From assembly GCF_015453285.1 (NCBI RefSeq), contig NZ_JADLZT010000002.1, forward strand, positions 310,001 through 374,000: 64,000 nt of DNA, written 5' to 3'. This document shows positions 1-17,072 of this stretch, one piece after another; the stretch's first letter is position 1, and every line of letters starts with the position of its first letter. A program made the translations under genes and the position numbers. The notes beneath the pieces are model-generated. The model was not told the DNA's origin, searched no databases, and saw only the letters and a list, made by a program, of their open reading frames with translations. This stretch comes from Lysobacter niastensis (GTDB lineage: Bacteria; Pseudomonadota; Gammaproteobacteria; Xanthomonadales; Xanthomonadaceae).

Positions 1-244
1 CCGCGTCGTTGAGGCGAGTGGCGAACCCGTCGATGCGATGCTCCTGCTGCGTGGACAGGCTGTCCAGCTGCTGGCGCAACTCACCACGCCCCTGGCGTTG
101 CTCCTCGCGCAGCGAATGCTCGAGCTGCACGCCCAGCGGCCCCAGGTCCGCGGCCGGCTTGCGCATCAGCAGGATGACTAGAAGAGCGATCGCGGCGAAC
201 ACCGCGATCAGCAGGACGATCAGGAGCAAGGTGGTTTCAGGCAT
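1..244 (-). CDS. rmuC: DNA recombination protein RmuC, N-terminal part (gene runs off the left edge)
   Basis: About 81 codons of the N-terminus are in the window, read from an ATG at 244. The protein opens with one hydrophobic transmembrane segment (residues 2-27, rich in L, I, V and A), then a polar stretch rich in E, Q and R (residues 40-80) that looks like the start of a coiled coil. This membrane anchor plus coiled coil layout is typical of RmuC, a predicted nuclease-fold protein that limits recombination between inverted repeats. The catalytic domain lies outside the window, so the name rests on the N-terminus alone. The gene follows rlmI in the same direction after a 41-bp gap. Confidence 0.65.
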   Translation of the reverse strand, partial: MPETTLLLIVLLIAVFAAIALLVILLMRKPAADLGPLGVQLEHSLREEQRQGRGELRQQLDSLSTQQEHRIDGFATRLNDA

Positions 245-285
245 GGCGCCAGTGTATAGGCGCCGATCTCAGCCGGTGAGATGCC

Positions 286-1470
286 TCAGTCCAGCACGCG
301 GCAGAACACCGCCTTGAGGTAACGCGACTCCTGCACCTGCGCAAGCCACGGGTGGTCGGCGCCGGCGCCAGCGACCTTCAGCACCTGCACGGTACGACCG
401 GCGTAGTACGCGGCGCGGCGCAGCATGTCGAGGAACTGCTCCTCGCTGACCAGGCCGGTGCACGAGAACGTCGCGAACAGGCCACCCGGCTTGACCACGC
501 CGAGCGCGAGCTTGTTCATGTCGAGGTACTTCTTCAGCGCGGGGATGACCTGCTCGCGGTCGCGCGTCATCTTCGCGGGGTCGAGGATCACGACGTCGTA
601 CTGGTCGCCGCGGATGCCGGCGTCGCGCAGCCACGGGAAGATGTCAGCCTGGATGAAGCGCGGGCGCACGTTGTTGAGGCGCGCGTTGCCCTTGGCGATC
701 TCGATCACGTCGGCATCGATGTCCACGCCGACGACATCGGCGGCGCCGCGCACCGACGAGTACACCGCGAACCCGCCGGTGTTGCAGCACAGGTCGAGCA
801 CGGTCTTGCCTTCCACCTGCTGCGACAGCCATTGGCGGTTCTCGCGCTGGTCGGCGAAGAAACCGGTCTTGTGCGCGCCAGCCGGGTCGGCGCGGAACTT
901 GATGCCGTACTCGGTGATGATCGACGGCGGCACCGGCTCGTTGCCACGGAAGTCGAAGCTCTCCTGCTTCTGCACGTGCTCGTCGGCGAAGCTGTAGAAG
1001 CGGCAGCCGGGGAACTGCGCCTTCAGCGCGTCGTAGATCCATTCGCGATGGCGGAACGCGCCAGCGCTGAAGAACTCCACGACGAGCAGATCGCCGTAGC
1101 GGTCGACGACCAGGCCGGAGATGCCATCGCCTTCGCTGTGCACGACGCGCCAGGCGTCGGACACTTCGTCGAGCTTCAGCACGTCGCGGCGCAGCGACAC
1201 CGCCGCGGCGATCTTGCGCGCGAACCAGCCGGCATCGACGTCGATGTCGGGATCGGTCTCGAGGATGCGCACCGAGATGCGCGAATGGCCGTTGTAGAAG
1301 CCGCGGCCGATCCAGTCGCCCTCGACGCCGATCACATCGACGATGGAGCCGGGCTTGGGCCGCTGCGCGGGTTTCTCGACCAGTCGCTGGAAGATCCACG
1401 GATGGGTGGACTTCCAGGCATTCTTGAGGTGCACGACGGGGTAGGGCGTGCCGGGGAAAGACGTGTTCAT
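286..1470 (-). CDS. rlmI: Class I rRNA large subunit methyltransferase RlmI (23S rRNA m5C)
   Basis: 394 aa, close to E. coli RlmI. It is expected to methylate a 23S rRNA cytosine (C1962 in E. coli numbering) using S-adenosylmethionine. The N-terminal 75 residues look like a PUA RNA-binding domain (HPWIF near residue 23). The Rossmann-fold SAM motif DLCCNTGGF is at 226-234, DPAK at 297-300, and the nucleophile cysteine in FSCTG is Cys337. The ATG at 1470 is the only start that gives the family's normal N-terminus; the reading frame stays open further upstream, but that extension is low-complexity and overlaps the riboswitch region on the other strand. Transcription is divergent from the TerC gene. 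Confidence 0.93.
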   Translation of the reverse strand: MNTSFPGTPYPVVHLKNAWKSTHPWIFQRLVEKPAQRPKPGSIVDVIGVEGDWIGRGFYNGHSRISVRILETDPDIDVDAGWFARKIAAAVSLRRDVLKLDEVSDAWRVVHSEGDGISGLVVDRYGDLLVVEFFSAGAFRHREWIYDALKAQFPGCRFYSFADEHVQKQESFDFRGNEPVPPSIITEYGIKFRADPAGAHKTGFFADQRENRQWLSQQVEGKTVLDLCCNTGGFAVYSSVRGAADVVGVDIDADVIEIAKGNARLNNVRPRFIQADIFPWLRDAGIRGDQYDVVILDPAKMTRDREQVIPALKKYLDMNKLALGVVKPGGLFATFSCTGLVSEEQFLDMLRRAAYYAGRTVQVLKVAGAGADHPWLAQVQESRYLKAVFCRVLD

Positions 1471-1529
1471 CGCGCCATTGTAACGGTCGCTTGACACCCG
1501 CTTGCCCCGGTCTGGAGAATCCTGCCCTT

Positions 1530-1670
1530 CAGAAGGGGAGTAGCTCCCGACTTCGCGGTCGTCATTTCGAGTCACCTGAGGTGCATTCAGGTTTCTCCGG
1601 CCCGAGGGCAGTCCGGCAACGGGCTGTGAGCGAGACCTTCGCCGTACGGCGAAGGTCTGTCCCGGTCCCA
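1530..1670 (+). ncRNA. yybP-ykoY manganese riboswitch aptamer
   Basis: The leader of the downstream TerC/Alx gene carries hallmark segments of this aptamer. GGGGAGTAG is at 1535-1543, the conserved CCCGAGGGCAGTCCGGCAAC segment is at 1601-1620, and GAGACCTTCG begins at 1632. This last segment pairs across a short loop with CGAAGGTC, closing the second arm. From established knowledge, this class binds Mn2+ and controls Mn exporters and TerC-family proteins; a Xanthomonas oryzae member has been structurally characterised. A terminator immediately downstream suggests transcriptional control. The boundaries are approximate. Confidence 0.92.
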
Positions 1671-1679
1671 CCGAATACA

Positions 1680-1707
1680 GCCCGAACCCTGCGGTTCGGG
1701 CTTTTTT
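1680..1707 (+). terminator. Intrinsic terminator, likely the riboswitch expression platform
   Basis: A 9-bp perfect stem (GCCCGAACC / GGTTCGGGC) with a 4-nt loop is followed by six T residues. It sits between the aptamer and the terC start codon, so it must be read through for expression. This fits a switch in which Mn2+ binding favours antitermination (inference). Confidence 0.85.
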
Positions 1708-1724
1708 CGTTTGGAGATCAACTA

Positions 1725-2681
1725 ATGGAAACGATCGGCAATCCGATCCTGTGGGCAGGCTTCGCCGGCCTGGTAACCGCGGCACTGCTGGTGGACCTGG
1801 TGCTGATGCGCCACGGCGGCGACCACAAGGTCACCTTCCGCGAGGCCGCGCTGTGGAGCGCCGGCTGGGTGGGACTGGCACTGATTTTCAACGGCGGCCT
1901 GTGGTGGTACCTGCGAGAGACCGCCGATGTGGTGCTCGCCAACCGCGTCGCCCTGGAGTTCCTGACCGGCTACCTCGTCGAGAAGTCGCTGGCGGTGGAC
2001 AACATCTTCGTGTTCCTGATGCTCTTCATGTACTTCGCGGTGCCCGAGGAGCAGCGCCAGCGCGCGCTGGTGCTCGGCGTGCTCGGCGCGATCGTGCTGC
2101 GCGGCGTGATGATCTTCGCCGGCGCGGTGCTGCTGACGAAGTTCCACTGGCTGCTGTACGTGTTCGGTGCGTTCCTGCTGCTTACGGGCGTCAAGATGTG
2201 GATCGCCGCCGGCCAGGAACCGGACCTGGAAAAGAACCCGGTGCTGCGCTGGATGCGCAGGCACCTGCCGCTGACGCCCACCTACCACGGCCACGCGATG
2301 ACCTGGCGCGAGCATGGCAAGCGCCTGTACACACCGCTGTTCGTGGTGGTGGTGATGATCGGCATCACCGACGTGATCTTCGCCGTCGATAGCATTCCCG
2401 CGATCTTCGCCATCACCACCGATCCGTTCATCGTGCTGACCTCGAACGTCTTCGCGGTGCTCGGCCTGCGCGCGATGTACTTCCTGCTGGCCGGCATGGC
2501 GGGCCGTTTCCACCTGCTGCCCTACGGTCTGGCGGTCGTGCTGGGTTTCATCGGCGTGAAGATGCTGCTGATCGACGTGGTCAAGATCCCGGTGCTGGCC
2601 TCGCTGGCGGTGGTGGCGGCGATCCTGGCCGTCACCGTCGTGCTGAGCCTCAGGCGGCCGGCGCACGTGGAAGCGCAGTAA
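1725..2681 (+). CDS. alx: TerC/Alx family integral membrane protein (probable Mn2+ exporter)
   Basis: 318 aa, polytopic with about eight to nine hydrophobic helices. Family-typical acidic membrane motifs are present: EKSLAVDNIFVF, and ITDVIFAVDSIPAIFA in the second half, with the paired DN and DS residues thought to bind metal. TerC/Alx/MeeF proteins export Mn2+, probably to metalate or protect exported proteins. The ATG at 1725 has GGAG eight bases upstream. Control by the yybP-ykoY leader strongly supports a manganese role. The symbol is by analogy with E. coli alx. Confidence 0.88.
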   Translation: METIGNPILWAGFAGLVTAALLVDLVLMRHGGDHKVTFREAALWSAGWVGLALIFNGGLWWYLRETADVVLANRVALEFLTGYLVEKSLAVDNIFVFLMLFMYFAVPEEQRQRALVLGVLGAIVLRGVMIFAGAVLLTKFHWLLYVFGAFLLLTGVKMWIAAGQEPDLEKNPVLRWMRRHLPLTPTYHGHAMTWREHGKRLYTPLFVVVVMIGITDVIFAVDSIPAIFAITTDPFIVLTSNVFAVLGLRAMYFLLAGMAGRFHLLPYGLAVVLGFIGVKMLLIDVVKIPVLASLAVVAAILAVTVVLSLRRPAHVEAQ

Positions 2682-2795
2682 GCCGTCCGGGCGGGCGTCC
2701 CAGGGCTGGGGCGCCCGTGCCGGCCCATCGGTGGGACGCACTGGCCCAGCCCGGACCCGCTTGCAAACCCGCTTCCCGGCAACAATGTCCTGACC

Positions 2796-5991
<3,196 letters not shown>

Positions 5992-6010
5992 TCCCGGCGT
6001 CGTACTGGAC

Positions 6011-6043
6011 AAAAAAAAGCCCGGCGAATGCCGGGCTTTTTTT
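6011..6043. terminator. Bidirectional intrinsic terminator between icd and the caspase gene
   Basis: A 7-bp GC stem (GCCCGGC / GCCGGGC) with loop GAAT is flanked by eight A on the left and seven T on the right, so it can end transcription from both convergent genes. Confidence 0.9.
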
Positions 6044-6060
6044 GGTCTTGGCTGGCCGCG

Positions 6061-7791
6061 CTATCGGATCAATGGCCGCTTCAGTTGCGAAGGTGGACCG
6101 GCGAGGGATGCCTTCTGGTCGTACCTGAGTCCCTCCAGCTCTTTCGACGTGAGGCGGACCAGTTCCTGCGCGGTCATGCCACCCGTTCGCCGGGATTCGC
6201 GCCAGTTCTTCACCAGCGCGAAGGTGAAAGCGCCATGCGAGGTCGCGCCATGCTCGTACTCGTACGCTGACTGCTGTTCTCCGCACGCGTACAGCAGCAC
6301 CGGCATGTACGGGCCCTTGTGCCCCAGTTCCTTTCGGCGTTCCCGCATTGCCTGGATCCTTTGCGTGCGTACCGGCATCGCATAGCCGAGGCGCCCGGTC
6401 ATGCCCGCCAGCGGCATGTCGGTCTCGTCGACCGTCTTGGCGCGTGTCTTCTGGATATCGAGGTCGCGCTCCACCCACATCTTGTGCTCCTGGTTCCAGC
6501 GCAGGCGGCGGTGGCGCACGTCGTCCGGCGGATTGAGCCCGCGTATGCGCAGCGGCCCGCCCTTGGCCATGCCGCCGGAGTGGCAGCAATCGAGGATGAT
6601 CGTGAAGGCGGAGTCGTACGGCAGCTGCGTGTAGCGCTCGAACAGCCAGTCGTCGGTGATCGCATGGTCCCGCGACCAGTCGAAGTCGTACGGGACCAGC
6701 GCCTCGTCGACGCGATCGATGCGGTCGCCCAAGCCGTAGTCCGCCAACTGGGCGCCATGTCCACTGTAGTAGAGGACGCGCTGGTCTCCCGGCCTGCAGT
6801 TGTCCAGCAGCCAGTCGATCCTCGACCGGATGTTGTCCGCGGTGGCGCGCTTGTCGAGGACGACGCGGATGTCCTCGGCCGGTATTCCCACTTCCTGCAG
6901 CATGGCGCTCATCAGGAACGTGTCGTTGGCGCAGCCGGCCAAGCGATCCTTGGGGTTCGGGTAGTCGTTGATGCCGACCAGCAACGCGCGGTGCGTCGGC
7001 GTGGCCACGCGTCCGGCAACGCGGTGCTCCTTGCGCATCGAACGCGAAATGCGGCTGGTCTCGCCGTTGAGCAGGTCGAACCACACGGTCTCGGCCGTCT
7101 GCGGGTGCCGCAGGTATTCCGCCGCCGAGTGATCCGCGGCGCCGGGAATGTCGAACGTCGTTTCGATCTGGCGGTAGTTGTCGGCCGTGAGCCTGATCCT
7201 GGCCGTGAACACGGAGTCGTGGAGGTTGTACAGGTGATACCAGAACTTCGCCTGTGGGAGGGCACTCAACCTGCCGGCCTGGTACTGGCCGCGCACGAAC
7301 GGATTGCCTATCTGCGAGCCGAGCGATACGAACATGCGGCCGTTGCAGAGGCTGGACGTATCGCTGTGGGTGAACGTGTCGTAGGCCACCAGGGAACCCA
7401 GGCTGTGGCCCAGCACGACGTGAGGCTTGAACGCCGAGATCCGCTCGCTCAGCCGCTCGCGTGTCTCCTTCCGGAAGGTTCCGCTTTCGATCCACTTCAC
7501 CGTGAGTCCGGCGGTGTAACGCAGGCTCGAATCGCTTCCGCGGGCGGTACGGAACGGTGCGGTCACGCCGTTCACCACCAGGCAGGCCAGCGCCTCGAGG
7601 CAGTCCCCCAGGGTGACGTTATGCTTGTCGAAGATGTCGTCGTAGTGGCAGTACTGGATGTCGATGGTACGGCTGGAATCGACGGTCGCACAGGCGCTGC
7701 GGATCGCATCGGCCCACTCGGTTTCCCAGGCACCGCCGACCGGATGCTGGCCGACGCCGTGCACGCACAACACTTTCAACACGCTTGCCAT
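6061..7791 (-). CDS. Alpha/beta hydrolase-caspase fusion protein (peptidase C14 family)
   Basis: 576 aa with two apparent catalytic modules. The N-terminal 240 residues resemble a serine hydrolase: an oxyanion segment VHGVGQHP at 10-17, the nucleophile elbow GHSLGS with Ser130, and candidate Asp192 (NLHDSVF) and His221 (ADHSAAEY). From residue 267 a caspase p20-like domain follows: RALLVGINDYP, the catalytic His345 in YYSGHGAQ, and Cys403 in ILDCCHSGG. Past residue 420 is a p10-like region ending in FTFALVKNW and a short tail. There is no signal peptide or membrane segment, so it is probably cytoplasmic. It lies 42 bp downstream of the amidase gene and is probably co-transcribed. Activation trigger and substrates are unknown. 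Confidence 0.85.
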   Translation of the reverse strand: MASVLKVLCVHGVGQHPVGGAWETEWADAIRSACATVDSSRTIDIQYCHYDDIFDKHNVTLGDCLEALACLVVNGVTAPFRTARGSDSSLRYTAGLTVKWIESGTFRKETRERLSERISAFKPHVVLGHSLGSLVAYDTFTHSDTSSLCNGRMFVSLGSQIGNPFVRGQYQAGRLSALPQAKFWYHLYNLHDSVFTARIRLTADNYRQIETTFDIPGAADHSAAEYLRHPQTAETVWFDLLNGETSRISRSMRKEHRVAGRVATPTHRALLVGINDYPNPKDRLAGCANDTFLMSAMLQEVGIPAEDIRVVLDKRATADNIRSRIDWLLDNCRPGDQRVLYYSGHGAQLADYGLGDRIDRVDEALVPYDFDWSRDHAITDDWLFERYTQLPYDSAFTIILDCCHSGGMAKGGPLRIRGLNPPDDVRHRRLRWNQEHKMWVERDLDIQKTRAKTVDETDMPLAGMTGRLGYAMPVRTQRIQAMRERRKELGHKGPYMPVLLYACGEQQSAYEYEHGATSHGAFTFALVKNWRESRRTGGMTAQELVRLTSKELEGLRYDQKASLAGPPSQLKRPLIR

Positions 7792-7833
7792 GTCGTCATC
7801 CTCGTTTCGTGATGTGTGCGAATCGCGCTGCTG

Positions 7834-8523
7834 CTATGGGCAGCAACCGCCGTCCGATGTGCCTGCCTTCTTCGCGCGCTTGCCGCGTGGAGTTGCGCGG
7901 GTCGAAGCGGCCAGCGCCCTGGGCACGTCGTGGCCGTTGCCCGCCAGCACGAGTTGCCGGAACCGGTCCCAGTCGAACGCGGTGCCCGGGTCGCTGCGCC
8001 GGCTTGGATCCAATCGCGCGTGGGACACCACGTGCTTGAGGTTCGGATACTTCGCCCAGCAGTACCGCACGATGCGGGCGGTCGCCTCGACCTGCCATGC
8101 GGAGAACGGATCGCTCGCCTGTTGCGTGTTGACCACCTCGATGCCGAGCGACCAGTGATTGACCTTGGTGGCGCCGCCCCAGACATCGGCGTGGCTGCAG
8201 GTGTTGCGCACATGCCAGGCGGCGCGGGCTTCGGGGATGCAGGCCCACACCAGTTGCCCGTGCTGGGGTTCGTTCTCATCGGGCACCAGCCAGTGGAACG
8301 AAGCCTTGCGATCCCTGATCACCGAAACCGCGCCGTCGGAGCTAGCGCCCGCGGTCGCATGGATGACCACGGCGCGCACACCTAGGATGGGATCGTAGAT
8401 GCGACGCGACGACGCGCCTTCCCAGTACGGACGGATGCCGGGATACCAGGTTTCCTCCAGCATCACATCGTCGGGGCGGCCTGCCGTGGGCAGGTTGAAC
8501 TGGTACGTGCGGGGTGCGGCCAT
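7834..8523 (-). CDS. N-acetylmuramoyl-L-alanine amidase (amidase_2 family)
   Basis: 229 aa. Zn2+ ligands typical of AmpD/T7 lysozyme-like amidases are visible: His55 (VIHATAG), His168 (SHARLDP) and Asp178 (SDPG); Glu129 in GIEVVN matches the conserved acidic residue. It should cleave the bond between muramic acid and L-alanine in peptidoglycan or muropeptides. No signal peptide is seen, so it acts in the cytoplasm or is released by another route. The ATG at 8523 is chosen because GAGGAGAAC lies just upstream; an in-frame extension to 8595 lacks a site. The C-terminus is basic and ends in GGCCP. It is first gene of the pair with the caspase fusion. Confidence 0.88.
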   Translation of the reverse strand: MAAPRTYQFNLPTAGRPDDVMLEETWYPGIRPYWEGASSRRIYDPILGVRAVVIHATAGASSDGAVSVIRDRKASFHWLVPDENEPQHGQLVWACIPEARAAWHVRNTCSHADVWGGATKVNHWSLGIEVVNTQQASDPFSAWQVEATARIVRYCWAKYPNLKHVVSHARLDPSRRSDPGTAFDWDRFRQLVLAGNGHDVPRALAASTRATPRGKRAKKAGTSDGGCCP

Positions 8524-8839
8524 GCCCGTTCTCCTCGTCGCGGTTCGCGTGGTCGACAGGAAGGGATTCGTTGAACGCGTGCTCGCCCCGGACATCGTTC
8601 GCCGACATCCGCTTCGATGACCGGGGAAACGGCGGGCATGCGTTCGACAGGTCGCGCCGGAGCGTGACGCGGCGTTAAGTGCCGCTGTCGGTGGCTGGCA
8701 CTTGTGTGCTGCCTGTCATGGCGGACGGGCTGCAGGCAGCGGGTACGGCCCGGCCATCGATAGAATCGCTTGCGCGGCAGCGATGCTGCCTTTGCGCGTT
8801 ACGCGGCCCAGTAGGATGTGCCCCAACGGCCGGGCAGCC
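8524..8839. other. Gene-free stretch of 316 bases with three inverted repeats
   Basis: I find no supported gene. Three hairpin-forming repeats follow one another: AAGTGCC/GGCACTT (8677-8683 and 8697-8703), GCTGCCTG/CAGGCAGC (8708-8715 and 8733-8740) and GGCAGC/GCTGCC (8776-8781 and 8785-8790). The stretch must hold the end of the DUF4344 transcript and the promoter of the amidase-caspase pair; no confident -10/-35 pair was recognised. Confidence 0.5.
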
Positions 8840-9877
8840 TCAGCGCACGTATTGAACGCCGGTATTGCGGTCGCGTTCGCGCTCGCGCTGCTCGAACAGC
8901 CGGTTGGCCTTCTCTTCGGTCATCTGGTACTTCGGCGCCACGTACGGCAGCAGCAGGCGCAGCCACGAACGGCTGATGCGACGCGCCTCCTCCGGGCAAC
9001 CCTTGGCGCGTGCCTCCGGCAGGTCACCATCGGTGACGATGCTGAGGTAGCGCGCGGGATCGCTGCCATAGAGCAGGCATTGCAGGTTGAAGTAGCGCTG
9101 CTCGCCCAACGCATGCTGGTCGGCATAGGCGTCGAGGCTGTATTGGCCGGTGCTGCGCACCAGGAACCAGTTCGACGCCATCCGCAGGTTCTCGGTGACC
9201 ACGCCGGTCGATTCGTCCATGCCGGCGAAACGCTGCATCAGCGTGGTCGCCAGCTGGTCGACCGCATCTTCCTCGCGTCCGGTGATGGGGATCTCGAGCA
9301 GGCTGATCAGCGCGTGGCCGGTCTCGTGCAGCAGGATGAAGCGCACGTTGGCGTCGAGATAGCGCTGCGCGTAGGCGTCGCCGCCGCCGTTCTCCTTGGC
9401 CAGCTCGGTCCCGCGGTCGAGCAGTGTCTTCATCGTCTCGTAGCACATCACGACTTCGTTGCGCTCGGGCGAATAGAACGCGTTGACCTCGTTGCACTGC
9501 GCGGTGACGTAGTTGATCGGCCGGGGCAGCATCAACATGCCGTCGATGGCATGGACTTCCGGCAGCTTGCGCAGCATGTCGCCGTCATGGGCCATCTTGT
9601 AGAACGGCTCCAGTTCCGGGCTGCGTGGCTTGATGTACTCGTAGCCGAACTGCACGCCGCCGGCTTTCGTTTCGGAGTTGGCGGCCTTGGCGAACACCAC
9701 CGGCTTGAGCGCGGCCATCTCGTCGGCCACCGCCTTCTCGGCTTCGGCCCGGCCTTCGGCGCGGGCGATCGACAGCTCGACGGCGCGGCGCTTCTGCGCG
9801 ACGAGCGAATAGCCGAACGCGCCGCTGACGGCACCGAGGGCCAGCGACAGCAGGATGATCAGGATTCTCTGCGACAT
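8840..9877 (-). CDS. DUF4344 family putative metallopeptidase, membrane-anchored
   Basis: 345 aa. Residues 5-27 form a hydrophobic N-terminal anchor or signal, followed by a short charged helix (30-55). The zinc-protease motif HETGH is at 184-188, and the downstream EEDAVDQLATTLM provides a plausible third ligand region. This spacing matches DUF4344 proteins, which are predicted metallopeptidases of unknown substrate. The protein most likely faces the periplasm. It is a single gene, 73 bp downstream of the EamA transporter on the same strand. Confidence 0.82.
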   Translation of the reverse strand: MSQRILIILLSLALGAVSGAFGYSLVAQKRRAVELSIARAEGRAEAEKAVADEMAALKPVVFAKAANSETKAGGVQFGYEYIKPRSPELEPFYKMAHDGDMLRKLPEVHAIDGMLMLPRPINYVTAQCNEVNAFYSPERNEVVMCYETMKTLLDRGTELAKENGGGDAYAQRYLDANVRFILLHETGHALISLLEIPITGREEDAVDQLATTLMQRFAGMDESTGVVTENLRMASNWFLVRSTGQYSLDAYADQHALGEQRYFNLQCLLYGSDPARYLSIVTDGDLPEARAKGCPEEARRISRSWLRLLLPYVAPKYQMTEEKANRLFEQRERERDRNTGVQYVR

Positions 9878-9950
9878 GCGCTTCCCCGCGCGCCCACCTG
9901 CCCGGATCGTAGCGGCTCCGCAGGCGCTGCGGAACCGCCAAACGCCAGGG

Positions 9951-10919
9951 TCAGGCGGCGTGGCCTTCGGCGGCGGCCGGCTCCGGACGCACGCGCACCG
10001 CCCACATTACGCCGGCGACCAGCAGGCCGATGCCGAGCATCGTTAGCGGCGCCGGTGCCTGCCCGCGCAACATGAATGCGTAGGCGAGCGCGGCCAGCGT
10101 TTCGAACACGATGAGCTGGCCGACCAGGGCGGTCGGCATGCGCTGGCTGGCCTCGTTCCAGCACAGCGTGCCGAGCCACGACGCGAACAGGCCGATCGCC
10201 GCCATCAGCCCGATGAAAGCCCACGGGCGCGGCCCGAACGGCATCGGGAATGCACTGCCCGACGCCACCATGCCCACCCACAGCACGGCGTATCCAAGCA
10301 GCGCCAGCGGCAATGTCGCCACGCCCTGCGCGGTGGCCCAGGTGCGCGGGCTGCGGTCGGGATGGGCGCGCAGCCAGTCGGCATTGCGCAGCGGGTACCA
10401 GGTCCAGCAGGCCACGGCGACCAGCGCCAGCAACGCGCCCTGCGCGTAGCGCATCGGGTCCGCGCCGGGCGCGCTGCGCAGCGCCTCCCACTCGACGCGG
10501 TTGACGCAGGCGATGCCGGAAACGATCAGCAGCAGTGACGGCGCCAGCTTGCGCCACGGCAGGCGCCCGTCGCGCTGGTGGTTGCGCAGGTTCGCACTGA
10601 TCGCGATCACCACCGGCAGCGTGCCGATGATCATCGTCGGCAACGGTCCTCCGGCACGCTGGATGGCCGCGGCCAGGCACAGGTAATAGAGCAGGTTGCC
10701 GATCGCGGCGAGCTTGAGCGCCTCGATCCAGTCTGCGCGGTGCAGGCGGCGAAGCGCGGCGCGATCCCACCACGCCAGCGGCAGCGTGATCAGGCCGAAG
10801 GCGAGGTAGCGGCCGACCGATTGCAGCGCGGCCGGGTATTCGGGCACCAGCAGCGGCCCGACGAACACCAGGCCCCACATCAGTCCCGCGGCGAGTGCGT
10901 AGAGGGTTCCGATCCACAT
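9951..10919 (-). CDS. EamA/DMT family transporter
   Basis: 322 aa with about ten hydrophobic helices arranged as two EamA repeats, typical of drug/metabolite exporters. The substrate cannot be deduced. The ATG at 10919 is preferred; a GTG at 10934 would add five residues, and neither has a clear Shine-Dalgarno sequence. The gene lies 79 bp downstream of an AraC-type regulator on the same strand, a common pairing in which the regulator controls the exporter (inference). Confidence 0.85.
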   Translation of the reverse strand: MWIGTLYALAAGLMWGLVFVGPLLVPEYPAALQSVGRYLAFGLITLPLAWWDRAALRRLHRADWIEALKLAAIGNLLYYLCLAAAIQRAGGPLPTMIIGTLPVVIAISANLRNHQRDGRLPWRKLAPSLLLIVSGIACVNRVEWEALRSAPGADPMRYAQGALLALVAVACWTWYPLRNADWLRAHPDRSPRTWATAQGVATLPLALLGYAVLWVGMVASGSAFPMPFGPRPWAFIGLMAAIGLFASWLGTLCWNEASQRMPTALVGQLIVFETLAALAYAFMLRGQAPAPLTMLGIGLLVAGVMWAVRVRPEPAAAEGHAA

Positions 10920-10998
10920 GCCGGCAGCGTGCACCGGCGGCGTGGGCGTGTCTTGAACCAGATTGCGGTGCGCGTCCCTGGCAATTCAGTCCGCAGCG

Positions 10999-11823
10999 TC
11001 AGCTGCGCACCTGCTGGCGGTAGCGCGCGGGCGACACGCCGTAGCGGCGCAGGAAAGTGCGGTTGAGGTGCGCCTGGTCGCTGAGTCCGACGGCCGCGGC
11101 GACTGCGGCCGGCGTCTCGCCCGCGGCCAGCAGCCGCTTGGCTTCGAACAGGCGCAGCGCCATCAGCATCTGCTGCGGCGTGGCGTCATGCTGCGCGCGG
11201 AAACTGCGCAGGAAATGGAACGGGCTCAATCCGGCCACCGCCGCGAGTTCGTCCAGCGTCAGCCGTTGCGCCAGGTTCGTGCGCAGGTATTCGATGACGT
11301 GCGCGAATCGCGGCGCCGCTTCCGCCTGCACTGGACGCGGCCTCCGCGCCTGACGGCCGAACGAGTCGAGCAGCGTCAGCAGCAGGCTGTCGAACGCAAC
11401 CGGCTCCTGCTCCTGCCACAGCGCATCGAGCAACCGCGTGATGCGGCGCGCCTGCGCGGGGTCGTGATGTACGGCGGCGTCGAACCACCAGCCGGATTCG
11501 CCGGTCACCGCCTCGACCACGTCGGGGTCGATGTAGGCCATGCGGTAACGCCAGCCGCCTTCGGTTTCGGCGCGGCCGGTGTGCAGTGCGTCGGGATTCA
11601 TCAGCACCAGCGAATCCGGTGGCGCGACGTGTTCGCTGCCACGATAACGAAAGCGCTCGGCGCCGGACTCGATAGCACCCAGCCCGTAGGCCTCATGCGT
11701 ATGCGCATCGAATGCGTGGCGCACGATGTGCGCCCGATACAGCTCGATGCCGGGGCGGTGAGCCGGCCGGCGGAACTGTGCCACGTCCTGTGGATGTTCG
11801 AACTGGTGGGGAACGCCCTGCAT
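10999..11823 (-). CDS. AraC family transcriptional regulator
   Basis: 274 aa. The N-terminal 140 residues form a cupin-like sensor (HAFDAHTHEAYGLG and LVLMNPDALHTG), and residues 170-270 form the double helix-turn-helix: LTLDELAAVAGLSPFHFLRSF, then VGLSDQAHLNRTFLRRYGVSPARYR. The layout matches AraC regulators paired with amino-acid or drug exporters. The ATG at 11823 gives the normal N-terminus. It probably regulates the adjacent EamA transporter. Confidence 0.9.
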   Translation of the reverse strand: MQGVPHQFEHPQDVAQFRRPAHRPGIELYRAHIVRHAFDAHTHEAYGLGAIESGAERFRYRGSEHVAPPDSLVLMNPDALHTGRAETEGGWRYRMAYIDPDVVEAVTGESGWWFDAAVHHDPAQARRITRLLDALWQEQEPVAFDSLLLTLLDSFGRQARRPRPVQAEAAPRFAHVIEYLRTNLAQRLTLDELAAVAGLSPFHFLRSFRAQHDATPQQMLMALRLFEAKRLLAAGETPAAVAAAVGLSDQAHLNRTFLRRYGVSPARYRQQVRS

Positions 11824-11889
11824 GCGGCGATCTTGCCATGCATCGCCGCGGACCCGTGCCCGCATTCATGCGGGCACGAGGTGCCTGCG

Positions 11890-12105
11890 TCAGAGCATGC
11901 GCAGGTATTCGCGTTCGATGGGCCGCCAATCCAGCACGACCGCATCGTCATCGGTATCGGCTTGCCGTGCGCTCGAAAGCGCGAATGCGCGGGGTGCGCC
12001 TGAGCGCCGGGCGTAGCGGGGACCAAAGGCAGGCGTACGGAAGAACTCGAGGTCGAACGCGGCGAAGCCGGTATCGGTCAGGCATTCGTTCTTGAACAAC
12101 TGCAT
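11890..12105 (-). CDS. Small uncharacterised protein, 71 aa
   Basis: I do not recognise the family. An ATG at 12105 is preceded by AGGAGT at a good distance, which supports translation. The product begins MQLFKNECLTDTGFAAFDLE, is soluble, has one Cys, a basic middle (RYARRSG) and an acidic cluster TDDDA near residue 52. It is the second of two tiny same-strand genes; both start with M-[QN]-[LI]-F-[KT]-N. They are divergent from the LysR gene, which may control them. Confidence 0.55.
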   Translation of the reverse strand: MQLFKNECLTDTGFAAFDLEFFRTPAFGPRYARRSGAPRAFALSSARQADTDDDAVVLDWRPIEREYLRML

Positions 12106-12233
12106 GGCTGGACTCCTGGGGGAAGGGAGTTGCCGGAGGCTGTTTGTCCGGCGGGATCAGCTTCGCGAACGGCGATGACAAGGCGCCGACACCGGTATTG
12201 CGGTTTCATGCCGTTTCCGCTGACCCGGTGGTG

Positions 12234-12257
12234 GCAGCGCCGCCGGGGCGGCGCTGC
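12234..12257. other. 11-bp perfect inverted repeat between the two small genes
   Basis: GCAGCGCCGCC and its exact complement are separated by only two bases, ten bases past the stop of the upstream small gene. There is no T-run on the minus strand, so it may be a stability hairpin or partial attenuator rather than a classical terminator. Confidence 0.6.
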
Positions 12258-12266
12258 TTTCCGTGT

Positions 12267-12473
12267 TCAGGCGCATCCGCCGAGGGCGGGACTGGCGTCG
12301 CTACGTGCTTCATCGCGTTCATCGGCACTGCGGGCGTGGCCCAGCGGCGCGAAGAACTGTTCCGACGCGGCGCGATTGCCGTAACCGCGCGAATAGCGCT
12401 CGTCGTCTTCGTCGAACATGTGCGGATCGGCCAGGTGGCCCTGCAGGAAAAGGAGGTTCGTGAAGATGTTCAT
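12267..12473 (-). CDS. Small uncharacterised protein, 68 aa
   Basis: No family recognised. The ATG at 12473 has GGAGCAAG upstream. The N-terminus MNIFTNLLFLQGHLADP is mildly hydrophobic; the rest is polar and acidic (FDEDDERY, SADERDEARSD) and ends GGCA. It is the first of two tiny genes transcribed away from the LysR regulator, with a dyad operator in the shared intergenic region. A longer in-frame extension upstream runs into the LysR coding sequence on the other strand and is rejected. Confidence 0.5.
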   Translation of the reverse strand: MNIFTNLLFLQGHLADPHMFDEDDERYSRGYGNRAASEQFFAPLGHARSADERDEARSDASPALGGCA

Positions 12474-12518
12474 GACTTGCTCCAGTGCGGTGGATGCCGG
12501 CTTGGCGTGGACTACTTC

Positions 12519-12535
12519 CTTGCATGGGATGCAAG
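12519..12535. promoter_or_regulatory. Putative LysR operator (7-bp perfect dyad)
   Basis: CTTGCAT-GGG-ATGCAAG lies in the 154-bp divergent region between the small genes and the LysR gene. Its size and T...A dyad symmetry fit LysR-type binding sites. A further half-site (TTGCAAG) lies about 35 bases closer to the lysR start. The link to this regulator is inferred from position. Confidence 0.6.
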
Positions 12536-12627
12536 ATAGACTTCCGCCAAGCGCTGAAAAAGCGACACTTTTGCAAGACAGCATTGAATCCAGTTCAAGA
12601 CTAGGCCGCAATTGAAAGGACCCTGCG

Positions 12628-13581
12628 ATGAGCCGTCCGCCGCTGCACGCCCTGCTGGGTTTCATCACTGCCGCGCGCCTGGGCAACCTGACCCGCGCGG
12701 CCGAATCGATGCACCTCACCGTCAGCGCGCTTAGCCATCAGATCCGCAGCATCGAAGAGCGCATGGAGCAGCAGCTGTTCGAGCGTGGTGCACGCGGCGT
12801 CAAGCTCACCGATGATGGCCGCGCGCTCTACGACAGCATCAAGCCGCATCTGGATGCGATCGAGCACGCGCTGCAGCCGCGCGCACGGCGCCGCGACGAC
12901 GCGCTGGCGATCACGCTGATGCCATCGTTCGCGTCGAGCTGGCTGGTACCGCGGCTGCCGCGTCTGCTGGCCGCGCATCCGCAACTGGAGATCAGCCTGC
13001 AGTCGAATGTCGGCGTGGTCGATTTCGCGCGCGAGGCCACCATCGATGCCGGCATCCGCTTCGGGCCCGGCCACTGGCAGGGCCTGCAGGCGGTGCACCT
13101 GTTCGACGACTGGCTGATACCGACGGCGAGTCCCGCGCTGATCGAGCGCCTGGGCCGGCCGACGCTGTCCAACCTCCATGAGTTCCCGCTGCTCGGCGCA
13201 CCGGGCGGACGCTGGAGCGAGTGGTTCGCCCGCTTCGGCGGTGTGCCGCCCGAGCGCTTCGTGGCGATCTTCGACGACTCGGAGAACCTGCACCGCGCGG
13301 CCGCCGAAGGCATGGGCATCGTGCTCGGGCGGGTGACGCTGGCGCGGCCGCTGATCGATGCCGGCCGCCTGATACCGCTATTCGAGGAGCGCCTGAAGGC
13401 CGAGTACGCGCACTATCTGGTGTATCCGCCGCGCTCGCAGCACCACCGCGGCCTGGCGGTGTTCCGCGAATGGCTGCTGGAAGAGGCCCAGGCCTACCAG
13501 GCCGCCGAAGCCGAAGGCAAACCATCGACCCGGCGTGCGGGTACGGGGACCCGGGCCCCGTCGCGCCGGCGCAGGCCGTGA
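12628..13581 (+). CDS. LysR family transcriptional regulator (GcvA-like)
   Basis: 317 aa. An N-terminal winged helix-turn-helix (residues 5-65: LTRAAESMHLTVSALSHQIR, ERGARGVKLTDDG) is followed by a periplasmic-binding-protein-type effector domain (residues 90-290). The last 25 residues are a basic, low-complexity tail. GAAAGGA precedes the ATG. Similarity to GcvA-type regulators is suggested by the HTH and by phrases such as FDDWLIPTASPAL. The effector is unknown. It likely controls the divergent small genes. Confidence 0.92.
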   Translation: MSRPPLHALLGFITAARLGNLTRAAESMHLTVSALSHQIRSIEERMEQQLFERGARGVKLTDDGRALYDSIKPHLDAIEHALQPRARRRDDALAITLMPSFASSWLVPRLPRLLAAHPQLEISLQSNVGVVDFAREATIDAGIRFGPGHWQGLQAVHLFDDWLIPTASPALIERLGRPTLSNLHEFPLLGAPGGRWSEWFARFGGVPPERFVAIFDDSENLHRAAAEGMGIVLGRVTLARPLIDAGRLIPLFEERLKAEYAHYLVYPPRSQHHRGLAVFREWLLEEAQAYQAAEAEGKPSTRRAGTGTRAPSRRRRP

Positions 13582-13652
13582 CTGACGTCCATGGCCGCTG
13601 AACGGGTTAGGCTTGCGCACCCGATCCGACACCCCTGCCTGGAGGCCATCGA

Positions 13653-14525
13653 ATGAAACGCCTGCTGCTTGCCGCCGTGGTTCCCGTTCTGCTCGCCGCG
13701 TGCGTGAGTGCGCCCACCAACGAGGAAGCCCGGGCGGCCGCGGCCGCGCCGACGGCCACCGCCGTGGCCACGACCGACACCGCCGCGCTCGACACCGCGC
13801 TGCAGGGTGCATGGCGCGATCCGAAGAACGTCGTTCGCGACCAGTACCGCCACCCGCGCGAGACGTTGTCGTTCTTCGGCGTGGCACCGGGCCAGACCGT
13901 CATCGAGATCACGCCGGGCGGTGGCTGGTACTCCGATATCCTCGCGCCGTACCTGAAGGACAACGGCCACTACGTCGCCGCGGTGTGGGATGACGCGATC
14001 GCCGGCCAGCCGAAATACCGCTACGACCTCAACAAGACGCTGCGCGGCAAGTTCACCAACACCGCCGTGTATGGCTCGCCCGACGTGCGCGTGTTCGACC
14101 CGATGAAGCCGATGTTCGGCCCGGCCGGTTCCGCCGATGCCGTGCTGACCTTCCGCAACGCCCACAACTGGGTCGACGACGGCACCGCCGAGGCCTACTT
14201 CAAGGCGTTCTTCGACGTGCTCAAGCCGGGCGGCACGCTCGGCGTGGTCGATCATCGCGCCAAGCCGGGCACCGATCTGGAGAAGATGAAGTCGTCCGGC
14301 TACCTCACCGAGGCGCTGGTCATCCAGCTCGCGCAGGGCGCCGGCTTCGTGCTCGAAGCCAGGAGCGAGGTCAACGCCAATGCGAAGGACACCGCCGATC
14401 ACCCGAACGGCGTGTGGACGCTGCCGCCGGTGAACCGCCACGACGCCAAGGACGACGCGATGTACAAGGCGATCGGCGAAAGCGACCGCATGACGCTGCG
14501 CTTCCGCAAGCCCGCCGCCCACTGA
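13653..14525 (+). CDS. Lipoprotein with class I SAM-dependent methyltransferase fold
   Basis: 290 aa. A lipoprotein signal (MKRLLLAAVVPVLLAAC, lipobox Cys17) is followed by a short A/T-rich linker and a methyltransferase-like domain: motif I VIEITPGGGWYSDILAPY near residues 78-95, DAVLTFRNAHNW in the middle, and FDVLKPGGTLGVVDH late. This matches the predicted methyltransferases of COG4798, which are exported despite their fold; the substrate is unknown and SAM is not expected in the periplasm. It stands alone between the LysR gene and rluE. Confidence 0.85.
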   Translation: MKRLLLAAVVPVLLAACVSAPTNEEARAAAAAPTATAVATTDTAALDTALQGAWRDPKNVVRDQYRHPRETLSFFGVAPGQTVIEITPGGGWYSDILAPYLKDNGHYVAAVWDDAIAGQPKYRYDLNKTLRGKFTNTAVYGSPDVRVFDPMKPMFGPAGSADAVLTFRNAHNWVDDGTAEAYFKAFFDVLKPGGTLGVVDHRAKPGTDLEKMKSSGYLTEALVIQLAQGAGFVLEARSEVNANAKDTADHPNGVWTLPPVNRHDAKDDAMYKAIGESDRMTLRFRKPAAH

Positions 14526-14540
14526 CTTGATGCTGCGACA

Positions 14541-14602
14541 TCGCAAGGGCCGCGCGCGCGGCTGACAATGGCAAACCACTTCTGTTCTCGTGGCCCTTGC
14601 GA
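14541..14602. repeat. 11-bp perfect inverted repeat in the rluE leader
   Basis: TCGCAAGGGCC (14541-14551) and its exact complement (14592-14602) enclose 40 bases just before the rluE start at 14610. In mRNA it would form a long-loop hairpin containing the alternative ATG at 14568, which argues for the 14610 start. Confidence 0.6.
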
Positions 14603-14609
14603 CAAATCC

Positions 14610-15146
14610 ATGCTGATCGCCTTCAACAAACCCTACGGCGTGCTGTGCCAGTTCACCGATCGCAGCACGCCGCCGCGGCGCACGCTGGCGGAGTTCGGTC
14701 TGCCGCCGGACGTGTACGCCGCCGGCCGCCTCGATCACGACAGCGAAGGTCTGCTGCTGCTGACTGACGATGGCGGCCTCGCGCATCGCCTGACCGACCC
14801 GCGCCACAAGCAACCCAAGACGTATTGGGTGCAGGTGGAAGGCGATCCCGATGAGTCGCAACTGTCGGCACTGCGCCGCGGTGTCGAACTCAACGACGGC
14901 ATGACACTCCCGGCGAAGGCGAAGCGCATCGACGCACCGGCGCTGTGGCCGCGCGATCCGCCGGTGCGCTTCCGCAAGACCGTGCCCGATGCATGGCTGG
15001 AGATCGCCATCAGCGAAGGCCGCAATCGCCAGGTGCGGCGCATGACCGCCGCGGTCGGCCTGCCGACGTTGCGGCTGGTGCGCGCGGCGATCGGCCCCTA
15101 CCGGATCGAAGGATTGCAGCCCGGCCAGTGGCGGCGTTGCGACTGA
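14610..15146 (+). CDS. rluE: 23S rRNA pseudouridine synthase RluE-type
   Basis: 178 aa from ATG 14610; an ATG at 14568 would add 14 residues but lies in the hairpin. The family RsuA/RluB/E/F fold is shown by [11 protein letters not shown], the catalytic-Asp motif [14 protein letters not shown] and the C-terminal [29 protein letters not shown]-like block. There is no N-terminal S4 domain, which fits RluE (E. coli U2457) rather than RluB or RsuA. It is a housekeeping rRNA modification enzyme, convergent with the envelope operon 15 bp downstream. Confidence 0.9.
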
Positions 15147-15161
15147 CCGGACTGCGCGTCC

Positions 15162-17072
15162 TCAATCCGCGCCAGCGGCGGCGCCGGCTTCGCCGTGCTG
15201 TGCCAAGGCCGTGCGGAATGCCGCATCGAGCTTCTGGGCTTCCTTGTTCTTGTCGCGCGCCTTGACGATGTCCTCGTCGTTGCCCGGCGCGCCCAACGGC
15301 GCTCCGAGCGCCGAACGCGAGCGGCTCCACGCGATTCCGCATTGACCCTGGTGCGAGCGCATCACCGGCGTCGCGTCGATGGCGGGCTTGCCGTCGCTGC
15401 TGAAGCTGTAGGAGACCGGCTGCGACGGGGTTGCGTTGAGCAGCCCCAGCGACACGTGGTTGGGCAGCGTGTCCCAGGCGCGCACGTCGGCGTCGGGTTT
15501 GACCTTCATGCCGATGCCGCCGGACACCAGCGTGATCGCCAGGCCGGCCAGCTGCAGCGGCGGCACGCCCGACTGCGTCAGCAGATAGCCGATCTCGGCA
15601 CCGCCCTGCAGCCCGTTTCGCAACTGCGCCTTGCCGTTGAGGATCGAGTCGAACGCGCGGCCGCCACGGGTCGTCGCCTGGAAATGGATGTTGCTGTATT
15701 CCTGCAGGGTCAGCGGAGCGGCGTTGCCGACGAGCGCGCTGGCGCGTTCGTCGCGGCCGGCGTCGATCGAATCGACGATGGTCAGCAGCTTGTTCTCGCT
15801 GCCGCGCGCCATCTTCACCGGGCCACGGCCGAGGTCGGCGATCAGCAGGGTGTTTTCCTTGCCGGGCAGTTGCACGCCGGGGTTCACCTGCTTCGCCACG
15901 GCGAAGGCATCGGCGGCCTGCACCGTGTCGCCCATGCAGTAGGAAGACCAGCCCGACAGGTAGTTCATCAGCGCGAAGTCGCCCTGGAACTCCTCGGCCT
16001 CCGACAGCGTGTCCTGGAACTCGCCGGCCATGAACGAGGCGCGCGCGTTCTGGTAATCGCCTTCGCGCAGGTACAGCAGGCCGCGGTAGTAATAGGCCAT
16101 CACCCGCTCGTAGGGCTCGCCCTTGAAGTCCTTGATGCCTTCGCCGGTCCACTTGCTGCGCGCTTCCTTGGCTACCGCGGTCTTTCCGTAGAAGGATTCG
16201 ATCCGGCGAAGCGCCTCATCGAAGGCCCACTCGGCTTCGTCGTAAGCGCCGATCTCCATCGCCGCCAGGCCAAGGCGTTCGAAGTTCAGCACCGCGTTGT
16301 GCTCGCCATCGAGGTAAAGCGTCCTGTACAGCGGACGCAGTTCTTCGCGCTTGGTCTGCGCAAAGGTCTCCGCATCCGGATTCTCCGGCCGCGTGAAGGT
16401 CGGTTGCGTGCCGAAGGCCGGGAGGCGTGCGCGTCCCTCCCACGATTTCGCGACCTGCAGCGACGCCGGCTTGCCGGGGCCTGCCATGAACTCCGCTTCG
16501 TGCGCCTCCCGCTTGTCGCCGCAGAAACTCTGCGCAGGATGGGCCTTGGACAGGAAGAAGAACTTGTAGGGCACGACCGTCTCGGGTTCCACGGTCGTGA
16601 TGCGAACCCGGTACTTGCCGTCGTCCGGCGACCGCGAGTAGCCGTAGCAATCCCTGGTCTTCGGGCCAAAGAATCCGCCCATGGCGCTCATCCACTTCCA
16701 CGAAGTGGCGCCCTTCTTGTCGGTCACCTGCCGGTAGAAGGACACGTACACCTGCTGGTCGGTGACGACGCCGAAGTTCAGGTACTCGTCCTTGTACAGA
16801 TCGATGTCGTAGTAGGCGACATTGAAGAGCCGCGGCTCCACCTTGAAGAACGACAGCGAATGCATCTGGCGGATGCTGCCGTTCTCAGGCGAGAGGGTTC
16901 CCTCGTAACGGTCGCCGAAGAAGATCGGGATCGAGGGCATCGCATGCTGCGCGTCCCTGTCATAGATCGCATCGAAGACAGGGCCGGCTTCCTGTGCGGA
17001 CGCCTTGAGCGACGTTGCAGCGAAGGCCAGTGAAAGGGCCATGGCCAATGCGGTGCGCGTGGTGTGGTTCAT
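15162..17072 (-). CDS. Exported TPR protein, tandem paralogue A (COG3014-like)
   Basis: 636 aa with a Sec signal peptide (residues 1-26, cut near ASAQ). Residues 30-190 are a beta-rich module, and residues 255-430 hold TPR-like helices (GLAAMEIGAYDEAEWAFDEALRR; MAYYYRGLLYLREGDYQNARASF). The last 200 residues (IADLGRGPVKMARG, PLQLAGLAITLVSGG, WDTLPNHVSLG) resemble the uncharacterised COG3014 group. It is the last gene of a six-gene minus-strand operon with LpoB- and YcfL-like proteins and lies 46 bp after its paralogue. Role unknown; an envelope function is inferred from context. Confidence 0.75.
   Translation of the reverse strand: MNHTTRTALAMALSLAFAATSLKASAQEAGPVFDAIYDRDAQHAMPSIPIFFGDRYEGTLSPENGSIRQMHSLSFFKVEPRLFNVAYYDIDLYKDEYLNFGVVTDQQVYVSFYRQVTDKKGATSWKWMSAMGGFFGPKTRDCYGYSRSPDDGKYRVRITTVEPETVVPYKFFFLSKAHPAQSFCGDKREAHEAEFMAGPGKPASLQVAKSWEGRARLPAFGTQPTFTRPENPDAETFAQTKREELRPLYRTLYLDGEHNAVLNFERLGLAAMEIGAYDEAEWAFDEALRRIESFYGKTAVAKEARSKWTGEGIKDFKGEPYERVMAYYYRGLLYLREGDYQNARASFMAGEFQDTLSEAEEFQGDFALMNYLSGWSSYCMGDTVQAADAFAVAKQVNPGVQLPGKENTLLIADLGRGPVKMARGSENKLLTIVDSIDAGRDERASALVGNAAPLTLQEYSNIHFQATTRGGRAFDSILNGKAQLRNGLQGGAEIGYLLTQSGVPPLQLAGLAITLVSGGIGMKVKPDADVRAWDTLPNHVSLGLLNATPSQPVSYSFSSDGKPAIDATPVMRSHQGQCGIAWSRSRSALGAPLGAPGNDEDIVKARDKNKEAQKLDAAFRTALAQHGEAGAAAGAD

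Follow-up and report, generated by a model that had tools for sequence, protein, structure and literature searches.

Introduction

To our knowledge, the bacterial caspase pathways that are understood to date rely on pores, nucleases or the cleavage of proteins. The present work concerns a pair of genes of Lysobacter niastensis (Xanthomonadaceae), one for a peptidoglycan amidase and the other for a fusion of an alpha/beta-hydrolase with a caspase, which may together form a small suicide or lysis cassette. They occupy positions 6061 to 8523 of a stretch of 64,000 nucleotides (assembly GCF_015453285.1, contig NZ_JADLZT010000002.1, positions 310,001 to 374,000 of the forward strand), and the whole of this stretch is hereafter called the window.

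Several described systems come close to this pair. The accessible part of a survey published in 2012 (PMC3501461) lists four fusions of a metacaspase with Amidase_2, one of which further includes a GDSL lipase domain, and one amidase within a metacaspase operon of Geobacter sulfurreducens. The available sections of a study of 2020 (PMC7159879) describe (i) the VMAP (MoxR-vWA) conflict systems, in which the caspase is reported never to occur without an alpha/beta-hydrolase gene next to it, and (ii) the Trypsin-NucA "System 3", in which peptidases are coupled to Endonuclease_NS, sometimes with peptidoglycan-cutting effectors. Caspase-activated pro-nucleases, named Canu, are presented in the available text of PMC12799240. 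As far as the text of PMC7159879 and PMC8195603 is accessible, the word "amidase" is absent from both. Nothing nearer to the exact layout of an amidase gene with a hydrolase-caspase gene was found in the open-licence literature of PubMed Central. An initial interpretation made from the letters alone (the sequence-only reading) knew of no described system with this layout; this stands within the literature searched, but amidase-metacaspase fusions and caspase/alpha-beta-hydrolase pairings have been published (PMC3501461, PMC7159879, in their accessible parts). Within that literature the exact layout appears new, while its components and two of its pairings are already known.

Results

The two genes are co-directional and on the reverse strand. 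The amidase gene (7834..8523, minus strand) comes first and is separated from the fusion gene (6061..7791, minus strand) by 42 bp (7792..7833, minus strand), as the sequence-only reading had stated. A GAGGA-like ribosome-binding sequence, recognized by eye, precedes both starts, and the one ahead of the caspase start is included in this intergenic stretch. The first open reading frame (ORF) encodes an N-acetylmuramoyl-L-alanine amidase of 229 aa, of the Amidase_2 (AmiD/AmpD-like) type, with a basic C-terminal tail. It matches the Pfam Amidase_2 profile at 7.7e-20 (72 bits for a cut-off of 26), and its intact His55, His168 and Asp178, named as zinc ligands by the sequence-only reading, align with Escherichia coli AmiD (PDB 2bh7), as does Glu129, which we take to be catalytic. 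AmiD was also its nearest match in a PDB sequence search. The start at 8523 was chosen over an ATG of the same frame, at 8595: it is preceded by a ribosome-binding-like sequence, and the orthologue from another genome (G004, see below) has a Met near the same place. The enzyme shares with AmiD and AmpD of E. coli the Amidase_2 fold, the zinc ligands and the presumably catalytic Glu, but it differs from AmiD by the lack of a lipoprotein or secretion signal and from both by N- and C-terminal extensions of its own. An assignment to AmpD was dropped since its score against the AmpD equivalog (NCBIfam NF008758) is 60.1 bits, far under the 143-bit cut-off. As no stretch of 19 residues averages 1.5 on the Kyte-Doolittle scale in the amidase or in the fusion, neither protein has an obvious signal peptide or membrane helix, in agreement with the cytoplasmic type initially proposed for the amidase.

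The second ORF encodes a protein of 576 aa, with a hydrolase at residues 1 to about 255 and a caspase at residues 267-559 (6115..6993, minus strand; Pfam Peptidase_C14, E = 1.6e-26). In an alignment with MCA2 of T. brucei, His345 and Cys403 are found at the places of the catalytic dyad, and Asp290, Ser343 and Asp401 coincide with TbMCA2 Asp95, Ser156 and Asp211, which we take, pocket and numbering alike, to be the S1-pocket places. Two of these residues (Asp290 and Asp401) are acidic, and the caspase is predicted to cleave after Arg or Lys. The N-terminal region (7018..7791, minus strand) carries a GHSLGS motif, i.e., the GxSxG elbow of the alpha/beta-hydrolase superfamily, and a putative triad that consists of Ser130, Asp192 and His221. 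The motif, the triad and the caspase dyad, all of which agree with the sequence-only reading, are invariant in the 11 fusions aligned (a relative from G631, the N-terminal part of whose gene is in a different reading frame, was left out of this alignment), and the catalytic residues of the fusion are apparently intact. The hydrolase profile is weak: Abhydrolase_6 matches at E = 0.09 with the whole fusion and 0.0033 with its N-terminal half alone, and it matches four of five members of the fusion family at 0.0024 at best, every time under the curated cut-off. SH3BP5, an unrelated family, scores about equally in three of the five. The profile search advised for each domain by the sequence-only reading therefore returned clear matches for the caspase and the amidase but a sub-threshold one for the hydrolase.

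The same three types of domains were also found as one polypeptide. In the family sample, the best non-orthologous caspase matches are proteins of about 980-1010 aa with an N-terminal Amidase_2 and a C-terminal caspase, which are encoded by two genomes of the same genus (G003 and G007) and by two of another genus of the family (G024 and G217). A fifth long fusion, of 994 aa, is carried by a plasmid of the cyanobacterium Kovacikia minuta, the only one among 117 matching plasmid records to span 80% of the query. All five have a GHSxG motif between amidase and caspase, in a region that we read as a putative alpha/beta-hydrolase (with a weak DUF900 match once, in G024), and all five have GHG and DCCHSG in the caspase. 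The zinc ligands of the amidase are His-His-Cys, as in T7 lysozyme, in four of them; in G024 (L123), a Pro stands in place of the second zinc His, and this amidase is perhaps inactive in an otherwise intact fusion. A protein of about 600 aa with an HExxH motif and without Pfam match is encoded after the long fusion in every case (with an interrupted frame in Kovacikia), and two of the five loci (G003, L121:4127-11130; G007, L122:4083-11013) are three-gene operons that include a Trypsin_2-Endonuclease_NS gene.

Orthology of these proteins with the window trio was rejected on three grounds. Their amidases, although members of the same Pfam family, are far removed from the window amidase (hhalign probability 18%, E = 0.0013; no tblastn match at 1e-3), and their third zinc ligand is Cys versus Asp in the latter. 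The hydrolase regions have no profile similarity (0.3%, E = 0.23). The caspases form separate clades, with moderately supported deep forks (88/99), in a tree of 15 of 19 proteins (four without recognized Cys motif were excluded). Since the parts of both sets are only distantly related, we infer that an amidase, a hydrolase and a caspase were assembled at least twice, a conclusion whose reach is limited by shallow alignments.

Plasmid neighbourhoods were inspected for 15 chosen matches, from which no frequency was drawn. According to the record annotations, relatives of the HExxH protein adjoin MBL-fold and DUF2235 genes (L130, Methylorubrum), an AAA ATPase gene (L132, Hymenobacter) or GH25 and amidase genes (L129, Rhizobium). 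One relative of the trypsin-endonuclease protein sits within a type II secretion gene cluster and not within a conflict-like one. Matches to the hydrolase part of the long fusions include proteins with the annotation C1 family peptidase (plasmid of Sinorhizobium fredii, L131:5966-8020, and similar matches), so this hydrolase type may join papain-like peptidases too.

Only one close relative of the window amidase was found, in G004 (73-74% identity), and it retains His55, His168, Asp178 and Glu129. At 1e-18, the amidase matches two of the 395 genomes of the family sample (the window's own and G004); at 1e-25, it matches a single one of the 398 genomes of the phylum sample, the window's own. In G004, the orthologue occupies a locus different from the window site (L090:8233-12738), where its gene is divergent from that of a Tle1-like hydrolase (a name taken from Pfam), after which a Trypsin_2-Endonuclease_NS protein is encoded.

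The pair is flanked by the gene of a monomeric isocitrate dehydrogenase (icd) and by a DUF4344 gene. Neither gene occurs at the matching site in any of the 11 genus-mates, all of which have both flanks. This site (window 5990-8843) is variable: the distance from flank to flank is 32 bp in G003, 56 bp in G010 and 173 bp in G006, which are near-empty sites, and ranges from about 0.7 to 5.4 kb in the other eight genus-mates, which harbor other ORFs retrieved by a composition-based picker. Comparison of the window with L093 and L100 by blastn delimits the replaced segment as 6042..8842 (no strand), which corresponds to 32 bp in G003 and, with slightly different edges, to 56 bp in G010. Because no genus-mate holds one of the two genes alone at this site, the amidase and the fusion were likely gained together.

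The hydrolase-caspase fusion family is rare in the sampled genomes. The window fusion has a match at E = 1e-20 in 12 of the 395 genomes of the family, near full length in 10 of them (including the window's own), at 1e-30 in two of the 398 genomes of the phylum sample (the window's own and G631), and at 1e-40 in one of 229 genomes of the order of G631, namely G631 itself. Full-length relatives are present in nine of 38 Pseudoxanthomonas genomes and in Rhizobium johnstonii 3841 (44% identity). Together with G631, they provide 11 homologous loci of 15-18 kb, which were searched by tblastn at 1e-5 (the Pseudoxanthomonas loci L030, L031 and L032 being taken as G297, G376 and G287, and each counted once). 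None of the 11 contains a relative of the amidase of the long fusions, of the trypsin-endonuclease protein or of the HExxH protein. In R. johnstonii (L033:213-14969), the gene that follows the fusion homologue encodes another alpha/beta-hydrolase, and the region also holds AAA-M41 protease, PIN, DUF3800, CHAT and resolvase genes. In G631 (L104:7200-10018), the hydrolase-caspase gene, with its N-terminal part out of frame, is followed by the gene of a second, stand-alone caspase.

An origin from a phage or a plasmid was considered and rejected. The single phage record matching the fusion spans the caspase half alone, the eight phage records matching the amidase are all partial and below 60% identity, and scans of viral contigs gave no confirmed relative. 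None of the 192 plasmid records matching the fusion spans 80% of it.

Seven further flanking genes were covered by the profile scan: rhomboid, TerC, methyltransferase, EamA transporter, AraC-type and LysR-type regulators, and one gene without Pfam match, for which PADLOC gave a weak match to mad2 (1.1e-6). PADLOC gave nothing over the scanned flanks beyond one weak methyltransferase-like match, and no defence or secretion gene was recognized among the eight profile-scanned flanking genes and the DUF4344 gene; the other ORFs of positions 1-16000 of the window were read by eye. The scanned flanks being housekeeping, regulatory or unassigned, a defence island, one of the settings that the sequence-only reading would have counted as support for a system, was rejected, and the other, a place beside secretion genes, fared no better. 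A GC-rich hairpin (6011..6043, no strand), preceded by an A-run and followed by a T-run, lies between icd and the 3' end of the caspase gene and looks by eye like a bidirectional terminator, although it was not reported in a pattern scan. This terminator-like sequence (window 6008-6047) matches many places in this genome and in related ones, which fits a common type of terminator.

Discussion

We tentatively interpret the amidase and the fusion as a small accessory cassette for self-directed conflict (suicide or lysis), an explanation that we find plausible, though somewhat short of probable. An infection or stress cue would activate the caspase, the fused serine hydrolase would attack an ester substrate, possibly a membrane lipid, and the cytosolic amidase would cut peptidoglycan once this comes within its reach, so that the cell would be dismantled. 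The caspase might release or unblock the amidase, whose Arg/Lys-rich C-terminal tail is a candidate target. Both this order of action and the death of the cell are parts of the proposal. Four observations argue for a cassette: the invariant catalytic residues, the co-directional order of the two genes, their joint absence at the site in genus-mates and the recurrence of the trio. The lytic, defensive or death-related role suggested by the sequence-only reading is supported because the same three domain types recur as one polypeptide, in the genus, in the family and in a cyanobacterium, and because the amidase orthologue of G004 has a protease and a nuclease in its neighbourhood; it is weakened by the orthologous fusions that occur without amidase.

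Several results weigh against the cassette, the strongest being the ordinary flanks and the fact that the strict pair is known from a single genome. The scanned flanks include no gene for a sensor or an NTPase and no defence gene. No relative of the window amidase was found at any of the 11 homologous fusion loci, so the repeated co-occurrence with an Amidase_2 gene that the sequence-only reading had proposed as a test was not observed, and the orthologous fusion manages without amidase in Pseudoxanthomonas and Rhizobium (a distant match of 30-35%, one per genome, lies elsewhere in the nine Pseudoxanthomonas genomes and in R. johnstonii). Among defence models, PADLOC assigns the fusion to a generic caspase model alone (1.8e-19). 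The AlphaFold model built from a five-row alignment, which bears on the alpha/beta-hydrolase fold, has a mean pLDDT of 37.6 and is unusable. A promoter scan found no site. The GC content at third codon positions is 0.87 and 0.83 for the two genes compared to a mean of 0.83 (standard deviation 0.07) for 56 picked ORFs of the window, i.e., host-like, and a strong compositional foreignness of the pair was rejected. It is also possible that the two genes arrived by two successive insertions. The sequence-only reading had named two outcomes that would speak against a system, homologues without conserved neighbours or dead enzymes in most relatives: neighbours do differ from lineage to lineage, but all 11 aligned fusions retain intact catalytic residues.

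The absence of the amidase from the other fusion loci would also be expected if the adjacency were coincidental, an AmpD-like cytosolic amidase of muropeptide recycling, or an accessory one, having come to lie beside an independent accessory protease at a variable site. Since eight of the 11 genus-mates carry other picked ORFs between icd and the DUF4344 gene, unrelated insertions can build up there. AmpD is cytosolic and has no signal peptide, and the window amidase likewise has no obvious one. However, this amidase is far from the NCBI AmpD cut-off (60 vs 143 bits) and, among PDB sequences, nearest to AmiD, its sole close relative found again adjoins a hydrolase and a protease, and fusions of these domain types occur elsewhere, all of which make coincidence rather unlikely in our opinion. 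If the genome is assumed to have about 3,600 genes, of which no more than 13 are loose amidase candidates, the chance that a given gene adjoins an amidase is roughly estimated at less than 1%; the adjacency is notable, but alone it is not decisive.

Two other explanations were considered. The fusion could be a non-lethal regulatory protease-esterase that takes part in stress or signalling processing, to which one lineage would have added the amidase as a means to tune wall turnover. In all nine Pseudoxanthomonas genomes that carry it, the fusion gene has a DUF1993 gene on one side and, on the other, a convergent gene of the sigma-70 type (family names derived from one of these loci), and operons that combine a metacaspase with a sigma factor are described in the accessible part of PMC3501461. 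Yet the presence of the fusion is patchy, and the second caspase beside it in G631 and the alpha/beta-hydrolase beside it in R. johnstonii resemble clustered destructive enzymes; we regard a regulatory role as unlikely. Antibacterial effectors delivered to neighbours by a type VI secretion system (T6SS), or a similar one, are brought to mind by G004, since amidases, Tle1-like lipases and Endonuclease_NS nucleases are common effector classes. This last explanation is quite improbable: neither protein of the pair has an obvious signal peptide, and it is weakened because the sheath gene T6SS_VipA (PF05591), used as a single T6SS marker, was not found in any of six genomes, among them G004 and the present one (of 14 control genomes, one was positive in this search, E. 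coli).

A bolder form of the cassette, which we consider doubtful, is a caspase-triggered autolysin. The caspase-hydrolase would unleash a dedicated cytosolic amidase, infected cells would lyse before the release of phages, and this pathway would have been assembled, out of parts with a distant kinship only, more than once. More generally, the question whether the cell wall can come under the control of a bacterial caspase could be addressed with the recurring set of amidase, hydrolase and caspase, which here takes the compact form of two genes. The three-gene operon of the same genus, the first two genes of which have a cyanobacterial relative, is a second and larger test object.

Compared with known systems, the window pair resembles the Amidase_2-metacaspase fusions of PMC3501461, as far as its accessible part describes them, in joining a peptidoglycan amidase to a caspase-family protease. 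It differs from them in that its amidase, of the AmiD/AmpD-like type and with His-His-Asp ligands, is encoded by a gene of its own and its caspase is fused to an alpha/beta-hydrolase; the one-polypeptide arrangement is that of G003, G007, G024, G217 and Kovacikia, whereas the window has two ORFs. VMAP systems, in the available sections of PMC7159879, have caspase and alpha/beta-hydrolase as neighbouring genes, whereas the window has both in one protein; MoxR, vWA and VMAP were not detected in the eight profile-scanned flanks and the DUF4344 gene. The Trypsin-NucA "System 3" of the same sections resembles the operon of G003 and G007 and the locus of G004, where trypsin and Endonuclease_NS are both present, unlike the window pair and its scanned flanks, which have neither trypsin nor nuclease. 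Canu, as presented in the available text of PMC12799240, has in common with the window pair a bacterial caspase encoded with a hydrolytic effector, the activation of which is putative here. Its effector is an MBL-fold pro-nuclease and its caspase has an Ig-like fold, whereas no MBL-fold gene is found in the pair or in the scanned flanks and the candidate effector is an amidase. If the caspase-triggered autolysin were true, the pair would be a counterpart of the caspase-activated nucleases that is directed at the cell wall.

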